The notes beneath the pieces were generated by a model, which was not told the DNA's origin, searched no databases, and worked only from the letters and a program-made list of their open reading frames with translations. 36,295 bases of DNA from Anaerolineae bacterium. Lineage in GTDB: Bacteria > Chloroflexota > Anaerolineae > J036 > Brachytrichaceae. The translations under genes and the position numbers were made by a program. Shown piece by piece: positions 12,191 through 32,596 of the stretch; position 1 is the first letter of the stretch, and every line of letters starts with the position of its first letter. The DNA is taken from positions 1 to 36,295 of the forward strand of contig JAHBAL020000544.1 of assembly GCA_018500105.2 (NCBI GenBank), written 5' to 3'.

Positions 12191-12286
12191 AAACAAATTT
12201 CATTCTGACCGTTAACTTATAATATCAACAATCAAATAGTTGGTGTTTGTGGTTAGATATTCTCTATATCTAAAATTACTAAATTT

Positions 12287-15200
12287 ATGAAAAGCGGCAT
12301 GAACCCTTTACCGCTAACGGAATCAGTTGCTGGCACTCGTATTTATCAGTCGGCAGATGAAATAATAACTGCAAAAGATGCCTTAGCTTATCAGCATCTT
12401 TTGCTAAAAGCATGGCGCGAACTTCAACTGACAGCAGTATTGTCAATTAACGGTATTCCGACTGTTTATGTTCGTGACGATATAGAACCCGTCGAACCTC
12501 AAATAATTGCAGAATTACATCGCAAGTTTTGGAATCAGGGGTTAGCTACTATTTTTTTACTACGGGATACTAACCGAATCCGTGTATTTTCCGCAATGAA
12601 AACACCGATTGATCCAAAAACAGCAACAGAAAAAAACATAGAAAATGACCTTTTGGTTGAGGCAATCAATAACTCTACACAAGCTATTCAAGAAACACTC
12701 ATTCTTAAGATCGCAACAGGTCAATATTATGCTTCTAAGCCTGAATGGTTTGTTACAAATCAGGGGATTGATTCATATCTTTTGCGCAACCTTGAGGCTG
12801 TTCGTAACGAGTTGGTTGATGGCAAAGATGGCCTTAGTATTACCATTGCACACGCATTTTTGGGGAGAATTTTATTTGTTTGTTATTTATGCCATCGTGG
12901 AATTATTAACCTCGCCACTTATTTTCCAGATAAGGATTACGATCGATTACAAAGTTTACTTTCTAACCATGACGCGCTATATAACATACTCTTCCCTAAG
13001 CTAAAAGAAGAATTTAACGGCAGCATGTTTGATAACGATCTGTTTGAGGAAGGCAAAAAGATAAAACTACATCACCTTGAAGTTGTGCAAAGTTTCTTGA
13101 ATGGAGATGACGTTACGCGCCATCAAAAAACACTTGGAATATGGGCTTATGATTTTAGCTTCATTCCCATTGAGCTTATTAGCTCTATTTATGAGAAGTT
13201 TTTAGGTGCAGAAGATGATGGGCAACAAAAAAATTTAGGGGCTTACTATACACCGCGTTTCTTAGCTGAAATGACCCTTGACGTTGCATTAGAAGGTAGA
13301 GAAAATTATGATGGTTTGCGTTTCTTAGACCCAGCTTGTGGCTCAGGCATTTTTCTTGTTTTGATGTTTAACCGACTGGTCGCTGAGTGGAGATCAAAAC
13401 AACAAGAAGAAGGATTGCTTATTCAACAATCACAAGCGTTACGTGAAAGATTAAACTTGCTAAGGGGCGTAGATAAAAACCCAACTGCATGTCGAATTAC
13501 ATGTTTTAGCCTGTATGTTGCATATCTTGATCAGTTTAATCCACCAGATGTTCGAAAACATATGGAACAAACCGGTGAAAAGTTGCCAGCGCTTTTATAC
13601 TCTGACAAGCCCGACACAAAAAATTTATCGGTGGTCTGGGAACAAGATTTTTTTAATGTCGCAGATGAATGGCAAGGACAGTTTGACATTATTGTAGGAA
13701 ATCCGCCTTGGGTAGGACGCGGGACAAAACAAATTGCACAAGCATTTGTTGAAAAAACACCTGCATTGCTCTCACAAACAGGAAAAGCGACGCTTGTTGT
13801 TCCTTCAAAAATTTTACTTAACAAGACTGATAAGTTTCAATCTAAGTGGTTAGCGCTAGTAAGACTTGAAAAGGTCGTGCAGTTAGCTGATTACCGCTTC
13901 ATATTATTTAACGAAGCCAAAAGCCCAGCGACTATTATGCGCTTTATAAATACCCCGGCGCAGTTTAATCATAATATCGAATATGTAACACCCAAGGTGA
14001 CACCTACAGACTTGCGTAATGGTGTAATTAGTGTTTCTTCACAAGACCGTAAATGGATTCGCCAAACTCATGTGATGCAGGCTGCGAAACAAGGGATAGC
14101 CGGAGACACCTGGAAAATGTATTTGTGGGGAACGCCGCGTGACCAAAAGTTGTTGGCTTATTTATTAACATTTCCTAAATTAGAAGATCACATCGTTTTA
14201 CCAAGTAAGAATCGAAATAAAGAGTTACATCAGAGTTTTTGGCTAGCTGGTGTAGGATTTAAACCAACAAGTAAAAATGCGTCAGGGAAGTCTGACCGTG
14301 AACTGAAACCATTGGGGAATTGGCATCTAAATGATGAGTTTATTTCACATAAAGATATTAGGGGACTTTATTTTGTTCCCAATCAATTAACATCAACATT
14401 AGGCGAACACTTAACGACTACGAATAGCAGATTGGACGCACTTTATAGTAAACCGTCGGACAAAATTTTTGCCGCACCGTTAATTGTTTGGAATGGTGGA
14501 TTTACAGACGTTTCATTTTTTGATCGTAATGTGCGATTTCGAGATGCTTTGCATTCGATATCAGGGCCACCACAAGAAGAATCTAAGTTAATTTTTTTAA
14601 CAGCTTTTTTTCGATCCAAGTTAGCTAGGTATTTTATTTTTCATACAGCTGCTAGTCTTGGCATTGAACGTGATCAAGTTCACCTTCATGAAGCACTCCA
14701 ATTGCCGTTTTTATTACCTGAACATGAAGATGCTTTGCCAAACAGCCAAGTGTTGATGGATCAAATAGTTGCACAACTTTTAAAATTAAAATCTGAGGCT
14801 GAAAGAAGTGCAGATACAGTTAACAAAAGAATATCACCTTTAGACCCTATGAACTCAGGTGTTTTAAGCGGTTATCAAGAAACTCCATCGCAAATTTATC
14901 GTGAGTGGCGAGCCAGCTTAGTAAAAAAATCGCAGCAGGTGAAAGCGCAATTAGACCCTTTAATTTATCAGTATTTTGGTTTAACGAGTCAGGATATAGC
15001 TTTAGTGGAAGATACGTGTAATATTTTTGATAAGAGTGCTACACCATCTTCACTCGATTCAGCTAAATCTATTCCCACATTAAAAAATGTAGATGCACAA
15101 GGAATGCAAAGCTATGCAGATATGATAACCCAAACATTGAATGAGTGGACAAGTGGCGAAGTGCAAATATCTGCAACTGGGAGTAAAGACAATGAGACTG

Positions 15201-15472
15201 GCTTAGGACTTTTAGAACTCCGTCAGACAGTAAATGCCGAACCCTATACGATTAGTGCTTCTCCTCAGAATTTAGCTCGAAGTATGAATAAGTTGCAACA
15301 AATATCCCGCCAAAGAACGGGCATTTTAGAATATCAACATAGTGGTTGGTATTTTGATAATAATCGCATTATTATTGTTAAACCTGCCCGACTTGGGGAA
15401 TGGACACAGACAGCGGGACTCAATGATGCGGCTGAGATTTATGCTCATATTTCTATGGCACGCCAATCTTAA
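12287..15472 (+). CDS. Large DNA N6-adenine methyltransferase (Eco57I/type IIG-like)
   Basis: 1061 aa; motif I FLDPACGSGIFLVLMFNRL, motif IV NPPWVG, pre-motif SIYEKFLG...NLGAYYTPRFLAEMTLD. AT-rich relative to flanking genes. Confidence 0.85.
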   Translation: MKSGMNPLPLTESVAGTRIYQSADEIITAKDALAYQHLLLKAWRELQLTAVLSINGIPTVYVRDDIEPVEPQIIAELHRKFWNQGLATIFLLRDTNRIRVFSAMKTPIDPKTATEKNIENDLLVEAINNSTQAIQETLILKIATGQYYASKPEWFVTNQGIDSYLLRNLEAVRNELVDGKDGLSITIAHAFLGRILFVCYLCHRGIINLATYFPDKDYDRLQSLLSNHDALYNILFPKLKEEFNGSMFDNDLFEEGKKIKLHHLEVVQSFLNGDDVTRHQKTLGIWAYDFSFIPIELISSIYEKFLGAEDDGQQKNLGAYYTPRFLAEMTLDVALEGRENYDGLRFLDPACGSGIFLVLMFNRLVAEWRSKQQEEGLLIQQSQALRERLNLLRGVDKNPTACRITCFSLYVAYLDQFNPPDVRKHMEQTGEKLPALLYSDKPDTKNLSVVWEQDFFNVADEWQGQFDIIVGNPPWVGRGTKQIAQAFVEKTPALLSQTGKATLVVPSKILLNKTDKFQSKWLALVRLEKVVQLADYRFILFNEAKSPATIMRFINTPAQFNHNIEYVTPKVTPTDLRNGVISVSSQDRKWIRQTHVMQAAKQGIAGDTWKMYLWGTPRDQKLLAYLLTFPKLEDHIVLPSKNRNKELHQSFWLAGVGFKPTSKNASGKSDRELKPLGNWHLNDEFISHKDIRGLYFVPNQLTSTLGEHLTTTNSRLDALYSKPSDKIFAAPLIVWNGGFTDVSFFDRNVRFRDALHSISGPPQEESKLIFLTAFFRSKLARYFIFHTAASLGIERDQVHLHEALQLPFLLPEHEDALPNSQVLMDQIVAQLLKLKSEAERSADTVNKRISPLDPMNSGVLSGYQETPSQIYREWRASLVKKSQQVKAQLDPLIYQYFGLTSQDIALVEDTCNIFDKSATPSSLDSAKSIPTLKNVDAQGMQSYADMITQTLNEWTSGEVQISATGSKDNETGLGLLELRQTVNAEPYTISASPQNLARSMNKLQQISRQRTGILEYQHSGWYFDNNRIIIVKPARLGEWTQTAGLNDAAEIYAHISMARQS

Positions 15473-15477
15473 AAACT

Positions 15478-16107
15478 ATGACTGATACCGCATCGTGGAT
15501 CCCTTTGTTTCCAGAAGAACAAATCCCTAAAATTTTCGAGGCAATTTTCCGATGCATGTCTGCGATCAAAAAGAAAACGCCTAATGAATTAGAGACATCG
15601 CTTAATAAGCGACTCGCCAAAAATTTGATGCGCGATCCACAAATGAGGAATAGCCCGCTTGATATTTCTCGAGAAATGATTACGGATGATGAATCTTCTG
15701 ATGCTGAAGGGCGATTAGATATTGTTTTTAAATACTCTACCGCAGAGGTTAAACCTTGGCCTTATTTTGCGCTTGAAGGAAAGCGATTACATGTGACATT
15801 TTCTTCTGGGAAAAAGAACCTTGTTTCAGAGTATCTTGGTCATCAAGGAATGATGTGTTTTATTACTGGACGATATGCGAAGGGTTTAAAGTCAGGGGCA
15901 ATGCTGGGTTACGTTTTTGATGGCGATATTTTAAAGGCACATAACGCAATTTCACGAAGTATGCAGAAAGAACACACAAAATTGTTAACTAAGCCACCGC
16001 ACCAATTATCTCCATCTAAATTTTTTTCTCATCCACAGGTCTCAGAAACATTTCACACACTTTCGCACGGGGATTTTCAGCTTTTTCATATATTAGTTGC
16101 CGTTTAA
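15478..16107 (+). CDS. Hypothetical protein, possible PD-(D/E)XK nuclease, co-directional with the methyltransferase
   Basis: 209 aa ORF starting 5 nt after the methyltransferase stop; GRLDIVF...YFALEGKRL gives a D-x(n)-ExK pattern. Confidence 0.5.
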   Translation: MTDTASWIPLFPEEQIPKIFEAIFRCMSAIKKKTPNELETSLNKRLAKNLMRDPQMRNSPLDISREMITDDESSDAEGRLDIVFKYSTAEVKPWPYFALEGKRLHVTFSSGKKNLVSEYLGHQGMMCFITGRYAKGLKSGAMLGYVFDGDILKAHNAISRSMQKEHTKLLTKPPHQLSPSKFFSHPQVSETFHTLSHGDFQLFHILVAV

Positions 16108-16134
16108 TCATATTACAAAAGGCAATTTTTAAGT

Positions 16135-18033
16135 TTAATTTAGGGACATTTCCGGAATTAACTCGCCCATTTGTTTACGGATGGCGGCAGAATCGTTGCG
16201 CTCGGCAACAGCGGTCAGTGCGATTATGGCCTCATTTAAGCCTGCCGGAATATTGGCCTCGCTGTTGGTAGCGATGAAGATTTTCTCGTGGCGAGTGCGT
16301 TCGTAGTTTTCATGCGACAAAAATAGCTCCTCGTATAGCTTTTCGCCGGGCCGAATGCCGGTGAAGGCGATGTCAATATCGCGGCCCGGCTGCAAGCCCG
16401 ACAACTCGATCAGCGTGCGAGCGAGGTCGAGAATCTTGACCGGCTCGCCCATATCGAGCACAAAAATCTCGCCGCCTTGTCCCATAACCCCTGCCTGCAA
16501 AACAAGCTGCACGGCTTCGGGGATGGTCATAAAAAATCGCTCCATATCGGGATGCGTGACAGTGACCGGCCCGCCTGCCGCAATTTGTTTGCGGAAGGTC
16601 AGCACAACACTGCCGCGGCTGCCCAACACATTGCCAAAACGCACCGCGCTAAATGCGCGTTTTTTGCCCGCCCGCTGGTTGGCAGCTTGCATAACGACCA
16701 TTTCGGCGATGCGTTTGCTCGCCCCCATGATGGTGGTCGGGTTCACCGCCTTGTCGCTCGAAATCATGACAAACTTTTCCACATCATGCGCCACCGCCGC
16801 ATTCACCAGCATTTGCGTGCCGATGACGTTATTGGTGATGGCTTCGGGCGCGTTGCGCTCCATCAAAGGCACATGTTTGTGAGCCGCAGCATGAAAAATG
16901 ACTTGTGGACGATATTCGCCCATCAGCGCATTCACGCGGTTGGCATGGCGCAAATCACCAATGATGGCGCTAATTTTGGCTTGGCTGGGATCGAGCAAAC
17001 CCGATTTGAGCATTTTGGCGCGTAGGTCGTTTAGCTCGTTTTCGATCTCAAACACGCTGTTTTCGCCGTGCCCAAAAACAATCAGGTGTTCGGGTTGGCA
17101 GCGCAAAATTTGACGGCACAGTTCGCTGCCAATCGAGCCGCCGCCGCCGGTCACCAACACCCGTTTGCCGCGCAATAATTGCTGCACGCCTGCCGTATCA
17201 GTCACCACCGGCTCGCGCCGCAACAGGTCTTCGATCTGAATATTACGCAGTTGGCTGACATTGACCTTGCCGTCCAAAATTTCGTAAATGCCGGGGATGA
17301 TACGCGCACGTGCGCCCGATTGCTCGCTCCATTGCATCACTTGGCGCAGCACTTTACCGCTGGCGGTGGGCATGGCAATGATGGTTTGCTCAATGCCGAA
17401 CTTGGCAACTAAGCGCGGCAAATCTGCCGATTTGCCCAGCACGGGCAAGCCGTAAATGCGCACGCCTTGTTTGGCGGGATTGTCATCCACAAAGCCAAGC
17501 ACATGCAACCCCATTTGCGGGTTTTGGCTAATTTCGCGGGCGATCATTGCCCCCGCGTCACCCGCACCGACGATGAGGGCTGGCACGCTTTCGGCCCCGC
17601 GATTTTGCAAGCTGCGGCGGCGTTGTTGTTGCACCGAAAATTTGCTGGCCGAGCGAAAAAGCAAACGCGGCCCCGCCGTTGCCCAAATTGCCAACACCAA
17701 ATAGATGAATGGGGCTGAGCGCGGCACAACGATATCGGGAAAAACAAAATTGGCGATGATAAGGCTGACGCAACCGCCCAAAAGCACCCCGCTTGCGGTG
17801 CCAATCGTGAGCAAGAGCATGTCTTCGGTGGCAGCATAACGCCACATTCGCCCATATACATTGGTTTTGTAAAAAATGCCGATGGTAGCGACGACGGTGC
17901 TGCCGCCCAATAACAAGATGCCACTCAGATAATCGGAAACATTCACCCGATCGAGTCTGAGCATGTAGGTGGCAAACGCACCTAAAAGCAATAGCAAGGC
18001 ATCGGCCAACAAAAAATAACGATTGCGCAACAT
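16135..18033 (-). CDS. CapD-like nucleoside-diphosphate-sugar epimerase/dehydratase (membrane-anchored polysaccharide biosynthesis protein)
   Basis: N-terminal TM helices, ALIVGAGDAGAMIAREI, VLVTGGGGSIGSELCRQIL, IFHAAAHKHVPLME, SSDKAVNPTTIMGASKR. ATG 18033 chosen over 18123. Confidence 0.93.
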   Translation of the reverse strand: MLRNRYFLLADALLLLLGAFATYMLRLDRVNVSDYLSGILLLGGSTVVATIGIFYKTNVYGRMWRYAATEDMLLLTIGTASGVLLGGCVSLIIANFVFPDIVVPRSAPFIYLVLAIWATAGPRLLFRSASKFSVQQQRRRSLQNRGAESVPALIVGAGDAGAMIAREISQNPQMGLHVLGFVDDNPAKQGVRIYGLPVLGKSADLPRLVAKFGIEQTIIAMPTASGKVLRQVMQWSEQSGARARIIPGIYEILDGKVNVSQLRNIQIEDLLRREPVVTDTAGVQQLLRGKRVLVTGGGGSIGSELCRQILRCQPEHLIVFGHGENSVFEIENELNDLRAKMLKSGLLDPSQAKISAIIGDLRHANRVNALMGEYRPQVIFHAAAHKHVPLMERNAPEAITNNVIGTQMLVNAAVAHDVEKFVMISSDKAVNPTTIMGASKRIAEMVVMQAANQRAGKKRAFSAVRFGNVLGSRGSVVLTFRKQIAAGGPVTVTHPDMERFFMTIPEAVQLVLQAGVMGQGGEIFVLDMGEPVKILDLARTLIELSGLQPGRDIDIAFTGIRPGEKLYEELFLSHENYERTRHEKIFIATNSEANIPAGLNEAIIALTAVAERNDSAAIRKQMGELIPEMSLN

Positions 18034-30725: not shown

Positions 30726-31124
30726 TTATTCGGCTGCGACGACTTCTTCATCAGCGGCTGGAATCAGGTCAGGGCTGACTGAAATTTCCTCGCTAATGAC
30801 TGCAACGGCTTTCTTATTGCCGCGACGCACAGGACGAATATGCTCTTCTTGCACAAACAAGTGGCGAATAACATCGGCGTTGAGCTTCAATCGGTTATCC
30901 AACGACTTGACTGAAGCTGGGGTGAGCTGGCACAGCAAGTGCATATAAAACCCTTCCTTGTGCTTGCCAATTGGGTAACCGAGCTTGCGCATCCCCCATT
31001 CCTTGGCGTTAACCACGCTGCCGCCTTCCATGGCAATCAATTCATTCACGCGCTCCACTGCACTGGCGCGGTTGGCATTATCCAAATCTGGTTTAACAAT
31101 ATAGGTTAATTCGTAATTTCGCAT
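30726..31124 (-). CDS. rpsF: 30S ribosomal protein S6
   Basis: MRNYELTYIVKPDLD...RKLGYPIGKHKEGFYMHLLCQLTPASVKSLDNRLKLNADVIRHLFV; AAGGAAAG upstream. Confidence 0.94.
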   Translation of the reverse strand: MRNYELTYIVKPDLDNANRASAVERVNELIAMEGGSVVNAKEWGMRKLGYPIGKHKEGFYMHLLCQLTPASVKSLDNRLKLNADVIRHLFVQEEHIRPVRRGNKKAVAVISEEISVSPDLIPAADEEVVAAE

Positions 31125-31201
31125 TTTCTTTGTCTTTCCTTGGTAGTTTTCTCACTGCTTCTTCAACGCGCAACAAATATTTAGCCACACACACTTTGCG
31201 C

Positions 31202-31240
31202 AAAAAAACGGGCTGGCCAATTCGGCCTGCCCGCTTTTTC
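31202..31240. terminator. Terminator/attenuator-like hairpin upstream of rpsF
   Basis: CGGGCTGGCCAATTCGGCCTGCCCG (31209-31233), flanked by A7 (T7 on the - strand) on one side and T5 on the other. Confidence 0.75.
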
Positions 31241-31322
31241 AAGAAGCGGAAAGCCCGCTCACGCGGGGCATACAATCATATCACAAGTATGCTTATTTTC
31301 CGATATGAATTTGTTGACAAAT

Positions 31323-31676
31323 CTAGGCTGGTTCAACTAAACCCAGCCATTTTAGATCAGGTTGGCTATCGTTCAAATAAGTTCGCACTTCGTTAAGCAA
31401 TTTTGGCCGCTGGCGGCGCATACGCAAACCATGACGCACCATTTCGTGGCTATTTGACCATTTGACTTGGGTAAAAACTTGTTGCAAATCGGCGCTGCTA
31501 TTAACATACTGGGCCATTTGTTCAGGCGACGCTTGCAAAATAAGGCGGAAAACGTCCAACGCCACAATTTGTTGCATAGATGATGTCGTTTTGCCAAACG
31601 CATCGTGAACGTATTTACAAATTGCCTTGGCGGCAATGAGGTTGTTTTGATGAAGTTCTGTCGTGTAAGCTGTCAT
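31323..31676 (-). CDS. Hypothetical protein
   Basis: 117 aa ORF without an overlapping better ORF; no family recognised. Confidence 0.5.
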   Translation of the reverse strand: MTAYTTELHQNNLIAAKAICKYVHDAFGKTTSSMQQIVALDVFRLILQASPEQMAQYVNSSADLQQVFTQVKWSNSHEMVRHGLRMRRQRPKLLNEVRTYLNDSQPDLKWLGLVEPA

Positions 31677-31990
31677 GATTTTAGAGTTTCCTGTTTTGCA
31701 ATACTACGCAATTATTTTAGTGTTTTATTGCTGGTTATTATCCTAACATATCACTATCGTTGCCACTCTCGCTATTATTTTCATGGAAGCAACAACTTGC
31801 AATTAGATTGCGCTTAGATTTTTCAACAAATGCACTTAGAAAAAAGGACTCTGTGACTCAAGACGCAATGCAAACTAGGACATTGGATGTAAAAAGTTCT
31901 AGGTTTGACTCTATTTTGCAATTTTGGTCGTGTTGCAGAGTTGATTCACAAATAGCGATTAAATTGCTTGTAAACAGCGTCCAAACAGAC

Positions 31991-32596
31991 TCAAGGCGTA
32001 TCTTTCCAATAGCTGATTAGCTGACCAGCGGGGTCGAACAGCGCCCCATCGTCTTGGGCATCATCATCCCAGATAGGGTTACCGACATTCACAAAGTCAC
32101 GGGTTTCGCCGGGTTGCAATTGTCCAGTCAACCCGCGATGTTGTTGCCCACCGTTCAGGCTACACATGTGCCAGTCGGTCAAATCCACCACACTGTTGCT
32201 CATGTTTTGCAAGGTGACCATTTCGGGGAAACGTTGCTTATAAACATCCACAATTCGAACGGGTATGTTGGGCGCTTGGCTGGCGTCTACCTTAATGGCA
32301 CAACTAAATGCCGGGCGCGGCGTGGGGGTGTCGGTGGCCTCGGCTGTGCTTTCTGGGGTGGGCGTGGATGGCTGGGAGGTGGCAGTGGCAATGACGCTCT
32401 CAGTCGGCGTTGGGGTATGGCTCACTGCGGGCGTCGGTGTGCCATCCGACAAAACCGCCACCAACGGCAAAAATGCGATCGGGGTCAGTGTGGCCGAGGC
32501 TTGCAGCGAGCTGGCAAGTGGGGCAAATGGATTGAGCGCAAACAGCCAAGCCGCCGAGAGTAATGTGGCAATGATGTATCTCATACGCCCCATCAT
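31991..32596 (-). CDS. Secreted protein with Thr-Pro-rich spacer and lamin-tail-domain-like C-terminus
   Basis: Signal peptide; HTPTPTESVIATATSQPSTPTPESTAEATDTPTP; VTLQNMSNSVVDLTDWHMCSLNGGQQHRGLTGQLQPGETRDFVNVGNPIWDDD. Confidence 0.75.
   Translation of the reverse strand: MMGRMRYIIATLLSAAWLFALNPFAPLASSLQASATLTPIAFLPLVAVLSDGTPTPAVSHTPTPTESVIATATSQPSTPTPESTAEATDTPTPRPAFSCAIKVDASQAPNIPVRIVDVYKQRFPEMVTLQNMSNSVVDLTDWHMCSLNGGQQHRGLTGQLQPGETRDFVNVGNPIWDDDAQDDGALFDPAGQLISYWKDTP

Follow-up and report, generated by a model that had tools for sequence, protein, structure and literature searches.

What kind of system is encoded by two adjacent genes, one for a very large DNA methyltransferase (MTase) and one for a small protein with a possible nuclease motif, and do the two belong together at all? 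The pair (gene 1 and gene 2) lies between an SGNH-like lipoprotein gene and capD in a 36,295-nt stretch of DNA from an Anaerolineae bacterium (contig JAHBAL020000544.1), which was analysed over its whole length and is called the window below. The following features bear on the question.

12192–16153: horizontally acquired insert of ~3.96 kb at the SGNH gene/capD junction, delimited by the empty site, GC and GC3
12218–12223, + strand: TATAAT hexamer, a candidate −10 element without a good −35 (sequence, promoter scan)
12253–12273, upstream of gene 1: perfect 8-bp inverted repeat TTAGATAT-TCTCT-ATATCTAA (sequence)
12287–15472, + strand: gene 1, a 1061-aa type IIG-like N6-adenine DNA MTase including a recognition region (Pfam, PADLOC, fold search)
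12392–12592, + strand: core of the N-terminal domain of gene 1, nuclease-like but degenerate, ~residues 36–102 (hhalign, predicted structure)
15059–15469, + strand: C-terminal domain of gene 1, residues 925–1061 (domain profile search)
15478–16107, + strand: gene 2, a 209-aa predicted PD-(D/E)XK nuclease with E39, D81 and E100-x-K102 (alignments, structure prediction, linkage, co-inheritance)

Reading of the open reading frames in the window showed two co-directional genes with a 5-nt gap and no internal stops, so that the 1061-aa and 209-aa frames of the original prediction are both intact on the same strand. Sliding GC content was 0.38–0.41 over 12.5–16 kb compared to ~0.50–0.60 around it (39% for the insert), and GC3 was 0.30 in gene 1 and 0.33 in gene 2, against 0.52–0.69 in all other genes of the window. 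Two genomes of the same genus (G403 and G405) contain the empty site, consisting of the SGNH gene, ~55 bp and capD, with 82% and 90–91% protein identity to the window for the two genes, respectively; their DNA homology to the window ends at 12191 and restarts at 16154. Composition and the two empty sites together confirmed the predicted AT-rich insert between the lipoprotein gene and capD, which is made of two genes with short edges in place of a short intergenic stretch. The lack of an integrase or tRNA border, also part of that prediction, held as well: no tRNA or Rfam RNA was found in the window, and no integrase was seen adjoining the insert. A mobile-element boundary was rejected on these grounds and because the empty site revealed a simple replacement. 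A second, milder GC dip (0.42) at 31001–32000 of the window is unrelated to the two-gene module.

The window copy has no regulatory gene, and gene 1 is preceded by ~96 nt containing the TATAAT hexamer and the inverted repeat. The hexamer, which had been proposed to drive the pair, is present, but a usable −35 is absent and the promoter scan omitted it; the TATAAT-driven promoter was therefore rejected. The inverted repeat is a possible operator; the region folded no better than its shuffled versions. Other loci often have a third gene in front of the pair. LexA/S24-type repressor genes located directly before it at L007:657-1301 and L008:6187-6792 suggest that DNA damage controls these copies, a MerR-type gene was found in the same place at L014, L016 and L021, and another HTH protein at L020. 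At L018:7587-7781 and in the homologous Labrenzia/Rhizobium plasmid loci, the pair follows a conserved ~64-aa ORF, ribbon-helix-helix-like by eye and lacking a Pfam match, which is a possible controller.

The assignment of gene 1 as an Eco57I/type IIG-like MTase, made at first from the letters and translations, was supported by Pfam (Eco57I, 2.2e-16; N6_Mtase, 2.4e-12), by the PADLOC family REase_MTase_IIG (7e-70) and by the AlphaFold2 model (pLDDT 80), for which the type IIG enzyme BpuSI was the best match in the PDB (E 9e-15), with PglX/BrxX (E 2e-13), CamA and MmeI among the further matches. Motif I (DPACGSG) is conserved in the family alignment and the NPP of motif IV is invariant. No match to gene 1 was detected in the INPHARED phage genomes. 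The MTase and a recognition region are thus combined in one chain, as type IIG demands, and gene 1 departs from type IIG in its N-terminal region, where the D and ExK residues that a catalytic fused PD-(D/E)XK nuclease would have are missing.

This N-terminal region, with a predicted helix-strand-strand-helix-strand-strand topology, was compared to fused counterparts. MTases from viral contigs falling just outside the clade of gene 1 (≤201 bits) carry an N-terminal nuclease with a PDY...FF-EAKKP pattern. The clade N-terminal profile aligned to fused nucleases over 109 columns (hhalign P 8.7e-6, probability 83%); the second half of the domain was kept (HRKFWNQGLATIFLLRDTNRIRVFS versus RRYGWSAKLPLCILTDFEEFAIYD) and the catalytic strand was lost. 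An ExK was present in the N-terminal region of only 1 of 26 clade (paired) MTases (L007, out of register) versus 11/11 fused ones. The domain appears catalytically dead, as far as residues can tell, and would be either a descendant of the fused type IIG nuclease or a domain of the same fold; the paired and fused domains could also share a common fold without direct descent. At the opposite end of the protein, the C-terminal domain (~925–1061) was detected by the domain profile search in clade MTases only, which makes it a candidate for the site at which gene 2 docks. The Agrobacterium plasmid copy L010:7783-10002 (A. tumefaciens pAtA74a_a) encodes a clade MTase without the nuclease-like domain and still has gene 2 downstream; hence, the dead domain may be dispensable for pairing.

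Gene 2, searched singly or as a family, matched nothing in Pfam, NCBIfam, PADLOC, PHROGs or the PDB sequences beyond sub-threshold chance matches. Nine residues (E39, D81, E100, K102, Y119, G124, F128, M142 and H204) are invariant in 17 homologues; D81, E100, K102, Y119 and F128 stayed invariant upon addition of nine homologues from prophage contigs, and the same D and ExK were recognized by inspection in five more from the phylum. The AlphaFold2 model (pLDDT 85) begins with a helix (39–52) and two strands (61–65 and 82–86, the latter right after D81), followed by a strand bearing E100 and K102 (96–104), a helix (109–120) and a last strand (139–146). This predicted order is that of the canonical alpha-beta-beta-beta-alpha-beta core, and a conserved D together with E-x-K in such a core is what distinguishes the PD-(D/E)XK nucleases. 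Fold matches in the PDB were weak: the top one was the McrC nuclease (E 0.022, probability 0.85), MspJI and BamHI were among the others, none was below 0.001, and no significant match to the model came from a viral structure library. We therefore read gene 2 as a PD-(D/E)XK nuclease from its residue pattern and topology rather than from significant homology, and the nuclease-like motif initially noticed in it gained the backing of a family-wide invariant D/ExK in a predicted core. Nuclease activity of the protein is probable from these residues and the model. The idea that gene 2 arose by relocation of the fused N-terminal nuclease was considered and rejected: the catalytic segments align, but P was just 0.026. 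Two homologues, L190:4599-5309 (NZ_CP098363.1) and L192:4503-5177 (NZ_CP087096.1), carry the public label 'Fis family transcriptional regulator', apparently a misannotation.

Linkage of the second gene to the MTase had been set in advance as the test of the pair, and it turned out to be tight. Gene 2 was located directly downstream and on the same strand in 44 of the 46 evaluable clade MTase loci, which came from Acidobacteria and Verrucomicrobia MAGs, plasmids (22 loci, all with gene 2), viral or prophage contigs and 10 genomes of the window's own phylum, one of which (G267) retains only the C-terminus of the MTase. The two exceptions were L025, with a shortened MTase, and L031, with an intact MTase in the available sequence; L029 and G251 run off the contig end and are outside the count. 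Across 301 genomes of the phylum, MTase scores show a break and the presence of gene 2 tracks the side of the break: it accompanied all nine evaluable clade MTases (best match at least 221 bits) and, fragments apart, none of the lower-scoring MTases in the 189 genomes that had these alone (Fisher 9e-16). Tree distances of the two genes were correlated (Mantel r 0.75, 0/5000 permutations), with the same sub-clades recurring, and in both trees the window pair grouped with Acidobacteria and Verrucomicrobia pairs. This grouping, the empty site and the composition together point to cross-phylum transfer of the pair as a unit. Judged by linkage and co-inheritance in the sequences compared, gene 2 is part of the same system as gene 1. 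The pair was also found on conjugative plasmids and prophage contigs. At the plasmid loci L183, L014 and L180, genes of the TIR-domain and AbiH families are close neighbours of the pair, consistent with defence clusters. On pBel61 (L013:10974-19804), a second large methylase of the Eco57I type comes directly after the pair, with a helicase gene farther along, and this gene set is a possible plasmid defence island.

Taken together, the pair is best read as a type IIG-like restriction-modification system that is split, the dead fused nuclease being replaced by a separate one; we assign this reading a probability of roughly 0.7. Gene 1 would methylate adenine in a target sequence, probably an asymmetric one, chosen by its target-recognition region, and this methylation would mark self DNA. 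Gene 2, as a one-domain PD-(D/E)XK protein in which no recognition domain is visible, would supply the nuclease, probably docking on gene 1, perhaps at the clade-specific C-terminal domain, relying on its DNA reading and cutting unmethylated invading DNA. The complex, the borrowed specificity and a function in phage defence are what we infer from this architecture.

The alternative that survives best, although we consider it unlikely, is an ordinary type II restriction-modification pair, in which gene 2 is a free-standing enzyme reading the same sequence as an unusually large MTase. A length of 209–240 aa is usual for free-standing type II restriction enzymes, and the recognition region and gene 2 have diverged at comparable rates, as would happen if each followed the target sequence; no clean recognition-region swap was found. 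However, the recognition regions of L007/L008 and of L187/L189 diverged more than their gene 2 proteins, a single gene 2 family with a conserved catalytic core serves very diverse MTases, its model has no evident separate recognition domain, and the degenerate nuclease-like and private C-terminal domains of gene 1 suggest a complex. It is considerably less probable that gene 2 attacks foreign-methylated DNA in a type IV-like manner, or is a toxin neutralised by gene 1 methylation in abortive infection or plasmid maintenance. McrC and MspJI, its best weak fold matches, both come from modification-dependent systems, and the pair often occurs on plasmids and in the vicinity of toxin-antitoxin genes; against this, an McrB-like partner and a modified-base-binding domain are both absent, and the obligate pairing with an MTase fits self-modification better. 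Least probable of all is a non-restriction role with gene 1 as an epigenetic regulator and gene 2 as its non-catalytic partner. Some MTases with a related fold are indeed regulatory, and one of them, CamA, was among the top fold matches of gene 1, but gene 2 keeps its catalytic residues unchanged in ~31 diverse sequences and the context is mobile, on plasmids and prophages.

The usual classification of restriction systems follows the cutter, which may be part of the methylase chain, act as an independent enzyme or depend on a translocase. A system whose fused cutter is dead and has a dedicated substitute acting in trans would stand between these designs and would show how restriction systems break up and recombine. 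A wider claim, to which we would give even odds, is that a distinct and widespread class is built in this way: its fused nuclease died, a separate uncatalogued PD-(D/E)XK family borrows recognition via a private C-terminal docking domain, and the regulators (LexA/S24, MerR and other HTH types) are interchangeable. None of the defence and protein-family libraries that were searched contains the gene 2 family, and annotation pipelines therefore report the methylase alone, calling gene 1 type IIG or 'N-6 DNA methylase' and gene 2 'hypothetical protein'. Many conjugative plasmids carry the pair in plant-associated and marine bacteria, where it may hinder the transfer of DNA. With only two proteins, it is also a simple test system for a nuclease that borrows its specificity.

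Among known systems, the pair is closest in layout to the type IIG enzymes BpuSI, Eco57I and MmeI, sharing with them a single chain in which a target-recognition region comes after the N6-adenine MTase, and a nuclease-type domain at the N-terminus, which is degenerate in gene 1. It differs from them by the lost catalytic residues of that domain, by a separate nuclease gene and by the extra clade-specific C-terminal domain; with no fused catalytic nuclease, the pair falls outside type IIG as strictly defined. Gene 1 resembles PglX/BrxX of BREX as a large MTase with a recognition region and a similar fold, but scored only 62.8 against the PglX cut-off of 400, and the pair has a nuclease instead of the core genes (PglZ, BrxC and others), none of which was annotated in the neighbourhoods read or in the insert, where there are two genes only. 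The BREX-related systems of PMC12839542, built on DUF499/PglZ, also gave no match to the pair. Unlike DISARM, the insert contains neither the DrmA helicase nor DrmB (the DrmMI match was weak, 27.5 bits), and unlike type I, it has no helicase (HsdR) or S subunit (hsdM, 17.9 bits versus a cut-off of 242.75). With partner genes absent and family scores far below the cut-offs, assignment to BREX, DISARM or type I was rejected, bearing out the mismatch with these standard gene sets in the original prediction. Gene 2 shares a weak PD-(D/E)XK fold similarity with McrC and MspJI, but comes without an McrB NTPase or a modified-base-binding domain and without detectable sequence similarity to them. Separate modification and restriction genes are found in type IIH and in ordinary type II pairs as well. 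Type IIH has type I-like M and S subunits, and ordinary type II MTases are, to our knowledge, smaller and devoid of a dead nuclease domain. A described system of the same composition, named beforehand as a possible refutation, was found neither in the libraries searched nor in the open-access literature searched; clade members may stand in REBASE as putative type IIG enzymes. Set beside the known types, the pair looks like an undescribed restriction-system layout, and its two genes are inherited together in widely different bacteria and on plasmids and prophages.
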